In this document: positions 17,111 to 26,925 of the stretch, piece by piece
Position numbering within the stretch: the stretch's first letter is position 1
Layout of the letters: each line of letters begins with the position of its first letter
From: Bacteroidales bacterium
Lineage (GTDB): Bacteria > Bacteroidota > Bacteroidia > Bacteroidales > UBA3824
Reading direction: 5' to 3'
Length of the DNA: 64,000 nucleotides
NCBI GenBank assembly: GCA_016286055.1
Contig: JAEERW010000008.1
Coordinates: 1 to 64,000, forward strand
Notes under the pieces: generated by a model
Databases searched by the model: none
Seen by the model: only the letters and a program-made list of their open reading frames with translations
Told to the model about the DNA's origin: nothing
Program-made: the position numbers and the translations under genes

Positions 17111-20100
17111 ATGGGTAAGATAGTAGAAGTTAGCAAATTAGGTATCGACATAGGCTCCACTACCGCCAAAGTAGTGGTTTTCGACTCATTGGGTAAAATT
17201 GTGTTTACTTCGTATCAGAAGCACAACACTTACATATATCAGGCTGTTACCGAGGCTCTCCAAAAGGCAGAGCAACAACTCGGCAACATCACCGTTACTG
17301 CTGCCATCACAGGTACTGCCGGTATGGGCGTATCCGAACGCAACAATATCAAATTTATTCAAGAGGTAATTGCTGCCACCGACGTGGTAGAAAAAAAATA
17401 CCCCGATGTAAAAACCCTCGTTGACATTGGCGGCGAGGATACCAAAATGATCTTTTTCCGTCCGGGCAAAAATCCCGACATCCGTATGAACGGAAACTGC
17501 GCAGGCGGAACTGGTGCGTTTATCGAGCAAATGGCTACCCTCCTCAACGTTAAAATTGAGGATATGAACGCACTTACCGAAAAGGCTAAAAACCACTACC
17601 CTATTGCATCGCGCTGCGGCGTGTTTGCCAAAACCGACATTCAAAACCTTCTTGCCCGCAAGGTGGACAAAAGCGATATTGCTGCGTCGATTTTTCACGC
17701 AGTAGGTATTCAAACATTAAACACACTTTCAAGAGGTTACGAGGTGTTACCGAAAGTAATGTTTATAGGCGGACCGTTGACCTTTATGCCAGAACTCCGC
17801 AAAAAAATGCTTGCCTCAATGCACCTCACCGAAGAGGATATGGTTTTGCCAGAATTTTCGGAATTCTTTCCGGCTCAGGGCGCGGCTATGGCTTCCGAAG
17901 GCGAAGAACCAGTGTCACTTAACAATCTTATTCAAAAATTTGAGGCATCCAAAAATCTTAAATCCGAACCCAAAGACCGTCTACCCTACCTATTCAAAGA
18001 TAGCGACGAATACAACCTTTGGCTCAAAAACCGCAACATTATCACCCCAAAAAGGGTAACGCTCAAAGAATACACCGGCAAAAATCTTTACCTCGGTATC
18101 GACTCCGGCTCTACCACAAGCAAGGTGGCAATTCTCGGCAACAACAACGAATTGATTTTCAGTTACTACATATCTAACGGAGGTAATACTCTCGAAAAAA
18201 TTCACGCCGGTATAAAGCAGTTTTACACCGAAAACCAAGATATTATCAAGAGTCGCAATCTTAGCATATCAGCCTCAGCAGTAACAGGTTACGGTGAAGA
18301 CCTTGTAAAAGCCGCTATGGGCATTGATTACGGCATTGTGGAGACCCTCGCGCATTTTTCTGCCGCCAAATTCCTCAACGACAAGGTTGACTTTATTATG
18401 GACATCGGTGGTCAGGATATGAAGGCTATTTTTATCCAAAACGGCGTAATCAACCGAATTGAGTTAAACGAAAGTTGCTCAGCAGGTTGCGGTTCGTTTA
18501 TCGAAACATTTGCCAAAACGCTCGGTCTTTCTACACCAGAATTTTCGCAAGAAGCCTGCAAAAGCGCCGCCCCGTGCGACCTCGGTACTCGTTGCACCGT
18601 GTTTATGAATAGCAAGGTAAAACAAAGCCTCCGCGAAAATGCCTCTGTGGGCGACATCAGCGCAGGTTTGGCTTATTCCGTTATCAAAAATGCATTATTT
18701 AAAGTTCTCAAACTCAAAAACTTTGACGAACTGGGCAATACAATTGTAGTTCAAGGCGGAACATTTAAAAACCAAGCCGTTTACCGTGCTCTCGAAATTC
18801 TCACTGGCAAAAAACTCACCTCTACCGATATTCCCGAAATGATGGGAGCATTTGGCGCAGCACTCTATGCCAAAGCAAATTACGAGGCAGGCGGCGTTAG
18901 CAACAGCACATTTGTTGGCTTAGAAAACCTCGACACTGCACTCGACTATACCAACAAACAGATTCTCTGCAAAGGCTGCGAAAACAACTGTCTTGTAACG
19001 TCGTTTAAGTTTAACAACAAGCAAACCTACTATTCGGGCAACAAATGCCAAAAGGTATTCAACAGCAAAGGCAGCAACACCGACAAGGGCGAAAACCTCT
19101 TTGCAATACGTTACAACTTGCTTTTCGACCGCAAGTGCGATCTTCCCAAACCTCGCCTCACGATAGCCATTCCAAGGGTGTTGAACCAATACTCCAACTA
19201 TCCGTTTTGGCATAAGTTGTTTACTGAATGTAACATAAAGGTAATGCTCACCCCGCCCACCACAATGCCGATGTATGAAACCGGCGCAGGCACTATTATG
19301 AGCGACAACATCTGTTTTCCGGCGAAGATTGTGCACGGACACATTATGTGGGCTATTTCGCAAAAACCCGACCGCATATTCTACCCCATTGTAACATACG
19401 AGAAAAACGAATATAAAAACACCGAAAACTCGTTTAACTGCCCCATTGTGAGCGGTTACAGCGACGTTATCAAAAGTTCCGTCGACACCGAAAACCGTTA
19501 CGGCATTCCGTTCGACAATCCCGTTTGCAATTTCAACGATGAAGATTTGCTTTACAAAACTTGCAAAAAGTATCTCAAATCGCTTGGAATCAGCAGTTCG
19601 GACATAAAGCGTGCCTTTAAGTCAGCCCTCGAAGCGCAAGCCGAATACCGCAGCACTATCGCCGTTAAGGCAATGGAGATAATAGAGAACGCCAAAAGAG
19701 ACAACCGTCTTTTAGTGGTACTTGCAGGTCGTCCATACCACGCCGACCCGCTCATCAACCAAAAAACCCCCGACATAATCTCCGACCTTGGCGCAAGTGT
19801 TATTTCAGAAGATTCGCTCGCCGCATACTTAGACGTTATCCATTTGCAAATAATTCCGCAATGGGCTTATCCCAATAGAATACTCAACGCCGCACAATGG
19901 GTTGCTAATCAAGATTATAACGTAACATTTGTACAGTTAAACTCATTCGGATGTGGTCCAGATGCAGTTCTCGTCGACGAGGTAACAGATATACTCCGTG
20001 CTTCGGGCAAAAGCAACACTGTGATACGCATCGACGAAATAAATTCCACAGGCTCTATCTTATTGAGAGTCCGTTCGTTGATGGAATCATATAAAGTAAT

Positions 20101-21364
20101 GAATTTAAAGGAGCGTCCGGTACGCCACGAACGTCAAACGGTTAAACCCTTTGGTGTAGAGGATAAAAACCGAACCATACTTGCACCATATTTTGCCGAG
20201 GGTTACAGCGACATTATCCCTGTACTTTTCGAGATGTCGGGCTACAAGTTGGTAAACCTTCCCCGCCCCGACAAACGCTCGGTAGAATGGGGGTTGCGCT
20301 ATGCCAACAACGAGATTTGCTATCCCGCCACCATAGTTATCGGCGATATGATCAAGGCACTCAAAGAGGGCGACTACGACCCACTGAAAATAGCCTTTGC
20401 CATCACGCAGACAGGAGGACAGTGCCGCGCCTCATCGTACCTCGCTTTGATGAAAAAAGCCCTCATCTCGGCAGGACATCCCGAAATTCCTATCGTAAGC
20501 GTGGGCACGGCAGGCAAAACCATCAACTCGCAGCCCGGTTTCCATATCGATTGGATGCGCCTCTTGCCCGTGATTCTACCGTCGGCAATGTTTTTGGATA
20601 GTCTTCTGAGATTTTACTACATACTTGCCGCGCGCGAAATTCACAAAGGGCAAGCAGCCTCATTTAAAGATAAATACCTACGGTTAATTAAAGAAGAAAT
20701 TCCATACAATCAGCCCAAGAAGATTTACGAACTAATGGCAAAGATGGTAGCCGAAGCCGACACCATCGAGGTGCACAACCGTCCCGTACCCCGCATAGGC
20801 ATCGTGGGCGAAATCTACGTCAAGTACAACAAGTTCGGACACCGCTTCATCTCCGACAAACTTATCGAAGAGGGCGTAGAGGTAGTCTTCCCCCCTATTT
20901 TGGAATTTTTTACGCAAGAATTGGTCAACATCCGCAAAAATTGGGATATGCACCTGTCGCACAAGAAGTTCTCTACGTGGGTATTGCTCAAATACTTCAA
21001 CTACTACATCGAAAACGCCATCTCCAAGAGCAAGAAGATACTCGAAAAATCAAAGTATCCCTTTGTGTTTGAGAGCATTAAGCAGATAGCCGGAGAAGCC
21101 GAGCAGACCCTCAGCCTGAGCAACCAGTTTGGCGAAGGGTGGCTGATAAGTGCCGAAATAGCCTCATTCGCCAAGCAAGGCATCAAAAACATCATCAGCG
21201 TACAGCCCTTTGGCTGCATTGCCAACCAGATTATCTCCAAAGGCATCGAAAAGAAACTCAAAAAGCAGTTCCCCGACATCAACCTCCTCTTCCTCGACTA
21301 CGACGACGGAGCCAGTGATGTTAACATCACAAATAGGTTGTATTTTATGTTGAAGAATTTGTAA
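17111..21364 (+). CDS. 2-hydroxyacyl-CoA dehydratase activase (BadF/BadG/BcrA/BcrD ATPase) fused to DUF2229/CoA-dehydratase-like regions
   Basis: Two ASKHA ATPase domains (LGIDIGSTTAKVVVFDSLG; LGIDSGSTTSKVAILG), GGEDTKMIFF, NGNCAGGTGAFIEQMA; 1417 aa. Confidence 0.92.
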   Translation: MGKIVEVSKLGIDIGSTTAKVVVFDSLGKIVFTSYQKHNTYIYQAVTEALQKAEQQLGNITVTAAITGTAGMGVSERNNIKFIQEVIAATDVVEKKYPDVKTLVDIGGEDTKMIFFRPGKNPDIRMNGNCAGGTGAFIEQMATLLNVKIEDMNALTEKAKNHYPIASRCGVFAKTDIQNLLARKVDKSDIAASIFHAVGIQTLNTLSRGYEVLPKVMFIGGPLTFMPELRKKMLASMHLTEEDMVLPEFSEFFPAQGAAMASEGEEPVSLNNLIQKFEASKNLKSEPKDRLPYLFKDSDEYNLWLKNRNIITPKRVTLKEYTGKNLYLGIDSGSTTSKVAILGNNNELIFSYYISNGGNTLEKIHAGIKQFYTENQDIIKSRNLSISASAVTGYGEDLVKAAMGIDYGIVETLAHFSAAKFLNDKVDFIMDIGGQDMKAIFIQNGVINRIELNESCSAGCGSFIETFAKTLGLSTPEFSQEACKSAAPCDLGTRCTVFMNSKVKQSLRENASVGDISAGLAYSVIKNALFKVLKLKNFDELGNTIVVQGGTFKNQAVYRALEILTGKKLTSTDIPEMMGAFGAALYAKANYEAGGVSNSTFVGLENLDTALDYTNKQILCKGCENNCLVTSFKFNNKQTYYSGNKCQKVFNSKGSNTDKGENLFAIRYNLLFDRKCDLPKPRLTIAIPRVLNQYSNYPFWHKLFTECNIKVMLTPPTTMPMYETGAGTIMSDNICFPAKIVHGHIMWAISQKPDRIFYPIVTYEKNEYKNTENSFNCPIVSGYSDVIKSSVDTENRYGIPFDNPVCNFNDEDLLYKTCKKYLKSLGISSSDIKRAFKSALEAQAEYRSTIAVKAMEIIENAKRDNRLLVVLAGRPYHADPLINQKTPDIISDLGASVISEDSLAAYLDVIHLQIIPQWAYPNRILNAAQWVANQDYNVTFVQLNSFGCGPDAVLVDEVTDILRASGKSNTVIRIDEINSTGSILLRVRSLMESYKVMNLKERPVRHERQTVKPFGVEDKNRTILAPYFAEGYSDIIPVLFEMSGYKLVNLPRPDKRSVEWGLRYANNEICYPATIVIGDMIKALKEGDYDPLKIAFAITQTGGQCRASSYLALMKKALISAGHPEIPIVSVGTAGKTINSQPGFHIDWMRLLPVILPSAMFLDSLLRFYYILAAREIHKGQAASFKDKYLRLIKEEIPYNQPKKIYELMAKMVAEADTIEVHNRPVPRIGIVGEIYVKYNKFGHRFISDKLIEEGVEVVFPPILEFFTQELVNIRKNWDMHLSHKKFSTWVLLKYFNYYIENAISKSKKILEKSKYPFVFESIKQIAGEAEQTLSLSNQFGEGWLISAEIASFAKQGIKNIISVQPFGCIANQIISKGIEKKLKKQFPDINLLFLDYDDGASDVNITNRLYFMLKNL

Positions 21365-21459
21365 TTATATTTATATATTTGCAACTGATAAACAAAATAA
21401 TTTTTGCTTATGACAAAACGATAACTAAATTAACATATTAAATAATAATGCATTAGCAA

Positions 21460-21664
21460 TATTCGCGTCCAAGAAAAAAAGCCCCGAAAACTGTTTTTCT
21501 AACGGAAACGGATATCTTTCGCGTGTTCCCGATTTGGAAACACCATCACCCCAATGCTGTGCGCCGTATAGGTGCGCGCAGTGTTTTCTATTGGGGTGAC
21601 GGATAGGTTTCCATTCGGGGCTTCCTATCGGACGCGAAGGTAGAAAAAGGCACGCACCCTTTTT
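21460..21664 (+). ncRNA. Candidate structured ncRNA (extended hairpin, possibly 6S-like) followed by a terminator-like hairpin
   Basis: Nested complementary arms: TTCGCGTCC 21462-21470/GGACGCGAA 21630-21638; AAGCCCCGAA 21479-21488/TTCGGGGCTT 21614-21623; TGGAAAC 21535-21541/GTTTCCA 21607-21613; TCACCCCAAT 21546-21555/ATTGGGGTGA 21590-21599; CTGTGCGC 21557-21564/GCGCGCAG 21574-21581; then AAAAAGG-N7-CCTTTTT 21644-21664. Confidence 0.6.
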
Positions 21665-21705
21665 GTGTCCGTATGCAATGTTGTTTTTGCTGCAAAAAGA
21701 TAACT

Positions 21706-21960
21706 ATGCCAACATTGCAATGGATAGGAAAAGAGGCGATTGTAAGCCACGCCGACAAAGTGCCGTTCCGTGTTTTGGAGCGCCAATATTCGTATGCCAA
21801 CCCCGTAGAGACGTGCCACGGCGCGTCTCCATCATCCAACAACAAAATAATCCACGGCGACAATCTTGAAGCCCTCAAAGCCCTTTTGCCACAATACGAG
21901 GGTAAAATCAAAAAAAATTTTCGTAAATGTCAGCACTATCAGACCTTATATCGCAAATAG
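21706..21960 (+). pseudogene. N-terminal remnant of a second DNA methyltransferase (type III Mod-like)
   Basis: MPTLQWIGKEAIVSHADKVPFRVLE...NKIIHGDNLEALKALLPQYEGKIK matches the usual N-terminus preceding CIYIDPPYNTG in Mod proteins, then stops; overlaps the intact mod start. Confidence 0.7.
21808..21829. repeat. Palindromic element inside the mod remnant
   Basis: GAGACGTGCC-AC-GGCGCGTCTC (10-bp arms, one G-T wobble). Confidence 0.6.
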
Positions 21961-24063: not shown

Positions 24064-26925
24064 ATGAGAGTAGAATTATTTCCATTTCAGATAAAAGCGG
24101 TAAACGATTTGCGCCGCAAGACAGCCAGTGCGCTCGGCTTTTATCAGCAGACACATACGCCACAGGTAATTTCGCTGCAAGCACCCACCGGCGCGGGCAA
24201 AACAATAATGATGGCATCGTTTGTAGAAGATGTTATCTACGGCACGGAGGAATTTGAAGAACAGCCCAAGGCTATTTTTGTGTGGCTGTCTGATTCGCCA
24301 CAACTCAACCAACAGTCACAAAACAAGTTTCTAAAATCCGACAAAATTCGCATAAATCAATGTATCAGCATTCAAGACGACAATTTTGATAGAGAAACAT
24401 TCGACGATGGCAAAATCTATTTTCTCAACACACAAAAAATCGGCAAATCGGGCAACCTCTCCCAGCACTCCGACAGCCGCCAATATACCATTTGGGAAAC
24501 CGTAGAAAACACCATACAGCAAAAGTCAGACCGGCTATATTTCATAATCGACGAGGCTCACCGTGGAATGCAAGGCAAGGAAGCCGGCAGAGCCACATCA
24601 ATAATGCAGAGGTTTATCAAGGGCGCACCAGATTACGGCCTTAAAACGCCTGTACCTGTAATAATTGGTATAAGTGCCACATCTGCACGTTTTAATGCAC
24701 TTGTGGGCGACACCACCTCCACGCTACACAAAGTGATTGTACCGGCGGCGGATGTACGTGCGTCAGGCCTTCTCAAAGACCGCATCGTAATCACATACCC
24801 GGGCGACACTCAAAAAAACAACGAAATGGCAGTGCTTGACGCCGCCACCGACGAATGGGTTGGCAAAGTAAAGCATTGGCATCAGTACTGTTACGAGCAA
24901 CATTATGCCTACGTTAATCCTATTTTTGTAATTCAGGTTAAGGCAGGCAACGCCGAAAAAATATCAGAAACCGACCTTGAAACCGTCATTGCCAAAATTG
25001 AAGAACGCGCAGATATAAAATTTGAACCTTTTGAAGTGGTGCATACTTTTGGCGACCACGGCGATTTAACGCTCAACGGTCTAAAAGTAAGTCACATAGA
25101 CCCCAGCGACATTGCCGACAACCGCAAAGTAAAAGTTGTTCTTTTCAAAGAGAACCTTTCCACAGGATGGGATTGTCCACGTGCCGAAACAATGATGAGT
25201 TTCCGCCACGCCGAAGACGCCACTTACATAGCGCAGTTGTTAGGTCGTATGGTACGCACTCCGATGCAATGCCGTGTAAAGGTTGACGAATATCTCAACG
25301 ATGTTAGGCTTTATTTACCTTATTTCGATGTTGATACAGTAAAAAGCGTAGTAGACGAACTTCAAAATACCGAAGGTGGCGAAATACCTACATTTATTGA
25401 CGACGAGCAATTAGGTCACACTAAATACAATACGTATTCGGTGCATATCACTCACAAAAAACAAGACGACGACTATCCCTCATTGTTTGACGGAAACAAC
25501 AATGAAACTAATAACGAAACAAACAACGAAACTAACAGCGAAACTAATAACGAAACTAACAGCGAAACGGAAAGCAGTAATACTACTGATAGTAATACTG
25601 ACAATGACACCAATACAAACAACGATACCAATACTGATACAGTAACAGTAGAAGAAACAAATGTTGTCATTGTAGAACCTGACAATTCTCAGCAGACACC
25701 ACCCGAAAAGACAAAGCCAGAAGAGAAAAAGAAGCCTGTGGTTATGCCTCAACTATTTGAAATCAACATCGATCGCGAGGGGATAATCAAATATATCAAC
25801 GACTTGGGCATAATAACGTATCAGGTAAGAAGTGTAAAAATCAATAGTTACCTAAAATCTCTTCTTAGCCTTTCTTCGCTACTTACACAAACCAACATTA
25901 AGCGCGACGCCAAAGATGTAGTAACTGCCGATGTGGTGGGTAAAATTCACGATTATGTTCAAAAACTACATCAATCGGGTCATTACGATAATTTGGCAAA
26001 AGATGTACTTACATATAAATTGTCGATCAAAATATTTGACGTTTTCGGTTCAGCAATCAACAGCAATGACGTATCCGACCTTTTTACAATGAGCAACAGT
26101 GAACTTGACAGGCTATTGCGCATAGTGGAAACAAAACTTGGTGGCTTCGGTTTTACAAACAAATACGGCGACAAATATTTCGACGAAAACAATCCCGACA
26201 ATTTCAAGATGGATTGCATTCTTTATGCCTTGGAAGAAAAAAATATCGAAGAGTTAAACAATTATGCAGGCAAAAAATTCCACTCGTTAGACGATGAATA
26301 CCGCAAATACATAGTTGCCAAATCTGAGGAAATCAAAAAGCAATATGCTTCCATTATAGCCAATGGCGATGCTGTCAGCAAGCACTCGTTTTCATTGCCC
26401 GAAACAATACAAGTGCCAGTAAACGACAACGGAAAGGTTTACTACGACCATCTGTTTGCTGACGAAAAAACAGGCAAGGCGCAGATTAAACTCAATTCTT
26501 GGGAAGAAGGCGTTATTGAAGAAGAAAAACGCCGTGCGGATTTTGTTTGTTGGTTTCGCAACGAATCACGCAAACAATGGTCGCTCACTATACCTTACGA
26601 AATCAATAACGAAACCAAGGCTACATATCCTGATTTTATCATTGTGCGCCGCGATGCAAGTTTGGGATATATACTCGACATATTGGAGCCGCACGACCCC
26701 ACCCGTACCGACAATCTGCCCAAAGCCAAAGGCTTTGCCCGATATGCTGCGGAGGAATTCAAGATCGGCCGTATTCAACTTATCCGCAAAATAAAAGAGC
26801 AGACCGGCGAAAAATTCCATCGTCTCGACTTCTCCAAAGGCGAAATCCGACAAAAAGTATTAAAACTTCAAACTCCTGAGGAATTAGACCATTTGTTTGA
26901 AACTGACGGAATTATGGAAAAGTAA
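24064..26925 (+). CDS. res: Type III restriction enzyme Res (helicase-endonuclease)
   Basis: QAPTGAGKTIMMASF, IIDEAHRGMQG, LSTGWDCPRAETMMSFRHAEDATYIAQLLGRMVRTP, C-terminal YPDFIIVRR...ILDILEPHD. Confidence 0.92.
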   Translation: MRVELFPFQIKAVNDLRRKTASALGFYQQTHTPQVISLQAPTGAGKTIMMASFVEDVIYGTEEFEEQPKAIFVWLSDSPQLNQQSQNKFLKSDKIRINQCISIQDDNFDRETFDDGKIYFLNTQKIGKSGNLSQHSDSRQYTIWETVENTIQQKSDRLYFIIDEAHRGMQGKEAGRATSIMQRFIKGAPDYGLKTPVPVIIGISATSARFNALVGDTTSTLHKVIVPAADVRASGLLKDRIVITYPGDTQKNNEMAVLDAATDEWVGKVKHWHQYCYEQHYAYVNPIFVIQVKAGNAEKISETDLETVIAKIEERADIKFEPFEVVHTFGDHGDLTLNGLKVSHIDPSDIADNRKVKVVLFKENLSTGWDCPRAETMMSFRHAEDATYIAQLLGRMVRTPMQCRVKVDEYLNDVRLYLPYFDVDTVKSVVDELQNTEGGEIPTFIDDEQLGHTKYNTYSVHITHKKQDDDYPSLFDGNNNETNNETNNETNSETNNETNSETESSNTTDSNTDNDTNTNNDTNTDTVTVEETNVVIVEPDNSQQTPPEKTKPEEKKKPVVMPQLFEINIDREGIIKYINDLGIITYQVRSVKINSYLKSLLSLSSLLTQTNIKRDAKDVVTADVVGKIHDYVQKLHQSGHYDNLAKDVLTYKLSIKIFDVFGSAINSNDVSDLFTMSNSELDRLLRIVETKLGGFGFTNKYGDKYFDENNPDNFKMDCILYALEEKNIEELNNYAGKKFHSLDDEYRKYIVAKSEEIKKQYASIIANGDAVSKHSFSLPETIQVPVNDNGKVYYDHLFADEKTGKAQIKLNSWEEGVIEEEKRRADFVCWFRNESRKQWSLTIPYEINNETKATYPDFIIVRRDASLGYILDILEPHDPTRTDNLPKAKGFARYAAEEFKIGRIQLIRKIKEQTGEKFHRLDFSKGEIRQKVLKLQTPEELDHLFETDGIMEK
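25498..25641 (+). repeat. In-frame 12-bp minisatellite (NNET/NSET) plus degenerate DTNT tract within res
   Basis: Six consecutive 12-bp units AACAATGAAACT AATAACGAAACA AACAACGAAACT AACAGCGAAACT AATAACGAAACT AACAGCGAAACG, then degenerate. Confidence 0.85.

Follow-up and report, generated by a model that had tools for sequence, protein, structure and literature searches.

Here we report a structured RNA of about 220 nt, followed by a start-codon hairpin, in the 64,000-nt stretch of Bacteroidales DNA that was analysed (hereafter the window). With moderate confidence, and judging from sequence and its covariation, we read the element as a cis-acting leader that would have its own promoter and be transcribed into restriction-modification (R-M) genes and a few others, with a start codon that is closed by default and opened when the 5' tail changes its pairing partner. 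The RNA is probably a built-in switch for the timing of R-M enzyme production in gut Bacteroidales. The family is previously uncatalogued and lies outside Rfam 15; it has no known relatives, and the structured leader as a general idea is already known.

Extent and fold of the RNA

The element begins at GCATTAGCAATA (21449) and runs to about 21718, including the hairpin on the next start codon (Table 1). The earlier note had placed it at 21460–21664; a feature does lie there, but the true one is larger on both sides. The folding energy of 21460–21664 predicted by RNAfold was −84.5 kcal/mol, compared with −56.7 ± 4.5 kcal/mol in 200 dinucleotide shuffles (z −6.2, with 0 of 200 as low), and the median z of the minimum free energy over 46 family copies was −6.6. 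All the nested segments claimed for a long rod were found at their coordinates, among them TTCGCGTCC/GGACGCGAA, AAGCCCCGAA/TTCGGGGCTT and TGGAAAC/GTTTCCA (21535–21541/21607–21613), as were the ATCACCCCAAT/ATTGGGGTGA stem with its GC-rich tip and the AAAAAGG-N7-CCTTTTT hairpin.

Beyond this rod, the RNA has a fast-evolving compensated stem (P3), two pseudoknots that are supported outside the window's genus, and the hairpin abutting the start codon. The 46-nt bulge or large central bubble of the earlier note is structured and contains the conserved hairpin P2a and, in most copies from outside the genus, also one strand of the pseudoknot PK1. The idea of two alternative folds held in part, in that the competing hairpin GTGTTCCC-GATTT-GGAAACAC exists and its pairs co-change in congeners (GTG..CAC / GCG..CGC). 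An open reading frame (ORF) on the minus strand (21588–21911) overlaps the RNA, and the RNA copies vary in length in that region.

Downstream of the RNA, the window first has an 84-aa remnant, the truncated N-terminus of an MPTLQ-type methyltransferase that is intact in the sister genomes L024 and L028, and then intact type III Mod and Res genes. It looks as though the cargo has been replaced behind a conserved leader. As the remnant overlaps the start of the intact Mod gene by about 30 nt, the leader could control Mod only through coupling or read-through. Within the Res ORF, positions 25470–25760 encode a low-complexity run of NNET-like repeats that may be hypervariable or phase-variable. 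Directly upstream of the RNA (17111–21364) lies the gene for a 1417-aa CoA enzyme activase (BcrAD_BadFG and DUF2229), which is not considered part of the unit because the upstream gene differs among loci.

Table 1. Features of the RNA and its downstream genes in the window. Cells are alignment cells over the family copies; permutation z-scores ignore the kinship of the copies.
Feature	Position	Strand	Observation
Promoter −7 motif TAnnTTTG (TATATTTG)	21374..21381	+	67 nt 5' of the RNA
5' tail TGCATTAGCAATA	21449..21461	+	Pairs with the P4 flank (PK2) or the start-codon hairpin (P0); permutation z −4.7 (PK2, outside genus) and −4.9 (P0)
P1 5' strand TTCGCGTCC	21462..21470	+	96% of cells paired in 46 copies; 8 of 9 pairs with two-sided changes
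P2 5' strand AAGCCCCGAA	21479..21488	+	93% of cells paired; 8 of 10 pairs with two-sided changes
P2a hairpin CTGTTTTTC..GGAAACGG	21491..21511	+	Helix 3; within the former bulge; 55 G-U vs 1 A-C cells
Genus-level alternative hairpin GTGTTCCC-GATTT-GGAAACAC	21523..21543	+	Nine-congener alignment; 3' half also pairs with 21607–21613
P3 5' strand	21545..21555	+	Fast evolving, fully compensated; native vs permuted partners z −23, 46 copies
P4 apical hairpin	21558..21581	+	96% of cells paired; 84 G-U vs 0 A-C cells
P3 3' strand	21590..21604	+	Same permutation test as the P3 5' strand
P2 3' strand TTCGGGGCTT	21614..21623	+	Covariation over 46 copies
PK1 segment	21624..21629	+	Pairs with the bulge in most non-genus copies (CACGG/CCGTG type); z −6.3 outside genus, −1.4 within
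P1 3' strand GGACGCGAA	21630..21638	+	Covariation over 46 copies
Terminator-like hairpin AAAAAGG-N7-CCTTTTT	21644..21664	+	Helix 5; 88% of cells paired
Start-codon hairpin GCAATGTTG..CAACATTGC	21675..21718	+	ATG at 21706–21708; covaries across 42 copies, z −7.2
P0 3' strand TGTTGTTTTTGC	21679..21690	+	Partner of the 5' tail; overlaps a start-hairpin arm
84-aa remnant of MPTLQ-type DNA methyltransferase (apparent original cargo)	21706..21960	+	Start same as in the intact L024 and L028 genes
Type III DNA methyltransferase Mod, 699 aa	21927..24026	+	PADLOC MTase_III E 2e-193; PF01555
Type III restriction subunit Res, 953 aa	24064..26925	+	PF04851 ResIII E 1.6e-15; PADLOC REase_III

Distribution of the family

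Among 60 relatives searched with BLASTN, eight congeneric genomes each had a single copy, 80–86% identical. The covariance model R1, consisting of the window's sequence and these eight, detected six further full-length but divergent copies, a single one from the window's genus and the rest from other families of the order; its antisense matches, a mirror of the palindrome, were dropped. With the model R2 (13 sequences; strong match defined as E<1e-8, the E-values of both models being rough), about 40 strong copies were found in 22 of 394 Bacteroidales genomes, at one to five per genome. The window's own genome has three copies, the two further ones at C5:272217 and C9:45092. Among 398 genomes drawn from the phylum, R2 found no copy in the 397 other than the window's. 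The named homologs come mostly from metagenome-assembled genomes (MAGs) of ruminant-gut Bacteroidales. Sequences resembling very divergent members were seen at L143 (before an EcoRI-type methyltransferase; e.g., AGCGTTTGCTATTTATTCGG), L142 and L151 (R2 E 9e-7), which suggests that the family is wider than R2 detects.

BLASTN matches in phage and plasmid records were chance-level pieces only. A pattern scan of genome contigs returned 14 records, of which eight were ruminant-gut Bacteroidales MAGs or similar; L043, inspected among the remaining six, was a chance match, and the five others were judged to be chance from their taxa. Four viral pattern matches were obtained, of which the two inspected were both chance, and a second viral pattern scan gave no match.

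None of the 4227 families of Rfam 15 reached its gathering score anywhere in the window, and a scan of the eight homologous loci (E≤1) gave no match at the RNA. A relaxed scan of the locus (21300–21760, E≤10) returned chance-level matches only, to miRNA, snoRNA and staphylococcal families; Bacteroidales-1 (RF01693), which the earlier note had named for checking, was absent from these matches and from those at the eight homologous loci. No description of the RNA family was found in the open-access literature searched.

The same note had proposed a divergent 6S RNA, which would bind RNA polymerase. Neither RF00013 nor RF01685 had a match at the locus (gathering score or E≤10) or in the genome, and the RF00013 model does give matches in control genomes. 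The rod-like fold and similar length agree with a 6S RNA, and the Rfam 6S models are weak in Bacteroidales, giving sub-threshold matches only. However, the family is sporadic and multicopy rather than a single near-universal housekeeping copy, the RNA precedes R-M genes at a fixed distance and its central bubble is structured, and in the genome G059 a sub-threshold 6S-Flavo match and the family copy lie on separate contigs, so that we consider a 6S identity extremely improbable. Sub-threshold 6S-Flavo matches occurred in 13 of 59 Bacteroidales genomes (G059:C19:12479-12605, G063:C106:6012-6142 and 11 others), possibly the true 6S RNA of the order, poorly covered by Rfam. An RF00013 match in G006 (L021, E 0.007) was without any sequence motif of the present RNA family and was set aside.

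Covariation of the helices and pseudoknots

That the element is a structured RNA with compensatory changes was strongly supported by the covariation check run on the homologs. On 13 sequences, P1 was 100% paired with four two-sided changes. Over 46 copies, all five modelled helices covary, with two-sided changes in 30 of 37 pairs, and 92.9% of cells were paired compared with 80.1% after column shuffling and 36–51% with slid partners, in an alignment that was fitted to the covariance model and is so biased towards the model pairing. The evidence from P3 is less alignment-dependent, its own-partner pairing being retained despite only about 33% identity of the P3 region between copies.

Permutation z-scores, which ignore the kinship of the copies, were −6.8 overall for PK1, in which TTCACGG of the bulge pairs with CCGTGAA directly 5' of the P1 3' strand, and −3.3 overall for PK2, in which the 5' GCATTAGC pairs with GYTAATGC at the foot of P4. 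Within the window's own genus, neither pseudoknot showed covariation, and there was no informative variation. The start hairpin is typically GATTGATAG..CTATCAATC-ATG, and its arms covary. P0, the pairing of the 5' tail with this hairpin, is of the type GCTATTA/TGATAGC outside the genus and AGCAATA/TGTTGTT within it; as the P0 strand overlaps the PK2 strand, the two tests are not independent. In nested folding, P0 was rarely predicted and the closed-start state was favoured by a median of 3.8 kcal/mol. An outer pairing, GCATT..AATGT around the terminator, was retained solely within the P0 idea.

These pairings also bear on whether the element is a transcription attenuator only, in which the body and the terminator-like hairpin would be competing folds and the start hairpin would be incidental. 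That hairpin is conserved and placed between P1 and the start hairpin, as an attenuator would have it, but no conserved segment was found to pair with its arms, P0 encloses it instead of competing with it, and the arms of the start hairpin covary independently. We therefore regard attenuation alone as unlikely.

Strand, promoter and spacing

The modelled helices contain 162 G-U versus 29 A-C cells; P2 is the sole helix with A-C above G-U and accounts for 22 of the 29 A-C cells. Of the two strands, it is the plus strand that gives the better fold in 42 of the 46 copies. Together, the excess of G-U and the better plus-strand fold indicate that the plus-strand RNA, and not a DNA fold, is the selected molecule. 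They thereby argue against a DNA-level element, such as an attC-like folded recombination site for swapping defence cassettes, a reading that is prompted by the long inverted repeat, by sister species that carry different R-M genes behind near-identical RNAs, and by the apparent cargo swap in the window itself. Homologous recombination in a conserved leader is enough to account for such swaps, and the promoter motif upstream in one orientation and the start-codon hairpin likewise count against a recombination site, which makes it a very unlikely reading.

The motif TAnnTTTG, the established promoter motif of Bacteroidales, was present 30–110 nt upstream of the RNA in 30 of 46 copies, whereas shuffles lead one to expect 2.0 ± 1.4. 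In the interval from P4 to the ATG, it was found in one of 42 copies (2.2 expected), with no enrichment 3' of the RNA. Transcription therefore probably reaches the gene through the leader. For 39 of the 42 copies, the downstream ATG lies 40–61 nt past the terminator-like hairpin. The family shows features expected of a cis-regulatory leader: a covarying fold on the coding strand, a fixed position before a class of genes, and a promoter motif only upstream.

A free, trans-acting small RNA of about 260 nt, ending at the AAAAAGG..CCTTTTT hairpin and working elsewhere or binding R-M proteins, would account for the conservation of that hairpin and for the U-rich tail after it. Yet the fixed spacing to the ATG, the covarying hairpin at the ATG and the lack of an intervening promoter motif link RNA and gene in cis, and the downstream proteins are unrelated to each other. 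A trans-acting role thus appears rather unlikely, and the cis-acting leader remains our preferred reading.

Genes downstream of the RNA

The first gene downstream, called by Pfam, PADLOC or closely similar N-termini, belongs to R-M systems of unrelated kinds in 33 of the 46 copies. EcoRI-type methyltransferases follow the RNA in 19 copies, often with a second gene that is DUF262-like (by eye only). Eight copies in the window's genus, that of the window included, precede N6/N4 methyltransferases, type III or type I-like systems, and two others precede MmeI-type IIG enzymes. Single cases were an N6_N4 methyltransferase, a Tsp45I endonuclease, a helicase-HNH protein (type IV-like) and a D12 methyltransferase.

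The other 13 copies are without a recognised R-M gene; they precede three sulfatase-fold membrane proteins, one GDSL hydrolase, two HTH proteins, two P-loop proteins and one unclassified protein, while three have no gene and one is at a contig end. The sulfatase-fold (LtaS-like) membrane proteins and the GDSL hydrolase (L065, L103, L110 and L105) are candidate surface-modification or defence genes.

In the reverse test, R2 located the RNA at 10 of 30 EcoRI-type loci. Four of the RNA-less loci (L138, L139, L140 and L146) carry a gene of about 70 aa with an HTH_3 domain directly 5' of the methyltransferase, in a controller-like manner.

Proposed mechanism

The nascent leader would fold with its start region closed by default. 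This bacterial group does not rely on Shine-Dalgarno sequences. If the 5' tail, GCATTAGC(T)AT, forms P0 by pairing with the loop and 5' arm of the start hairpin, the ATG would be freed; if the tail is instead held by the RNA body at the P4 flank (PK2), which would compete with P0, the start hairpin would stay formed. The body might be stabilised or broken by a ligand, a protein, a phage factor or the speed of transcription, and the level of R-M expression would be set in this way. Read-through of the terminator-like hairpin may offer a second route. We infer regulation here from pairings that would exclude each other. The leader would thus fill a role that in other R-M systems belongs to controller (C) proteins.

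More broadly, and only tentatively, evolutionarily unrelated R-M systems (type I-like, II, IIG, III and IV-like), together with some putative surface-modifying enzymes, may all have adopted this single RNA device in Bacteroidales. It might play the part of C proteins at the RNA level, keeping expression low until the leader is flipped, be it by a signal of cell state or infection or by the completion of entry into a new host.

Comparison with known systems

It has long been asked how an R-M system can enter a new host and not kill it; the answers so far have mainly been C proteins, antisense RNAs and methylation-dependent promoters. If the present reading is true, a conserved leader common to R-M enzymes of unrelated kinds would answer this question in a general, portable way and supply a ready-made sensor. 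The family would also mark candidate defence genes, and the non-R-M genes behind the RNA are leads.

C proteins are encoded directly before type II R-M genes and time their expression. The leader resembles them in its position before R-M genes, and an HTH_3 gene stands before the four RNA-less EcoRI-type methyltransferases of the same order; in contrast, the regulator here would be a cis-acting RNA common to unrelated R-M types. With riboswitches and start-masking leaders, it shares a pseudoknotted body, proposed alternative helices and a putative expression platform at the ATG, whereas it has no known ligand or Rfam match and the genes behind it are mostly R-M and not metabolic. It is similar to 6S RNA (RF00013) and 6S-Flavo (RF01685) in length and rod-like outline, but it is multicopy, in cis and pseudoknotted, with a structured bubble and no model match. 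The AbiF-associated RNA is likewise a structured RNA adjoining a phage-defence gene, and there one RNA goes with one protein family (PMC12373285), whereas here one RNA family goes with many unrelated R-M enzymes. Antisense RNAs, finally, regulate R-M or toxin-antitoxin genes (reviewed in PMC3874152); control would be RNA-based in both cases, theirs acting by complementarity and the one described here as a sense leader with a conserved fold.
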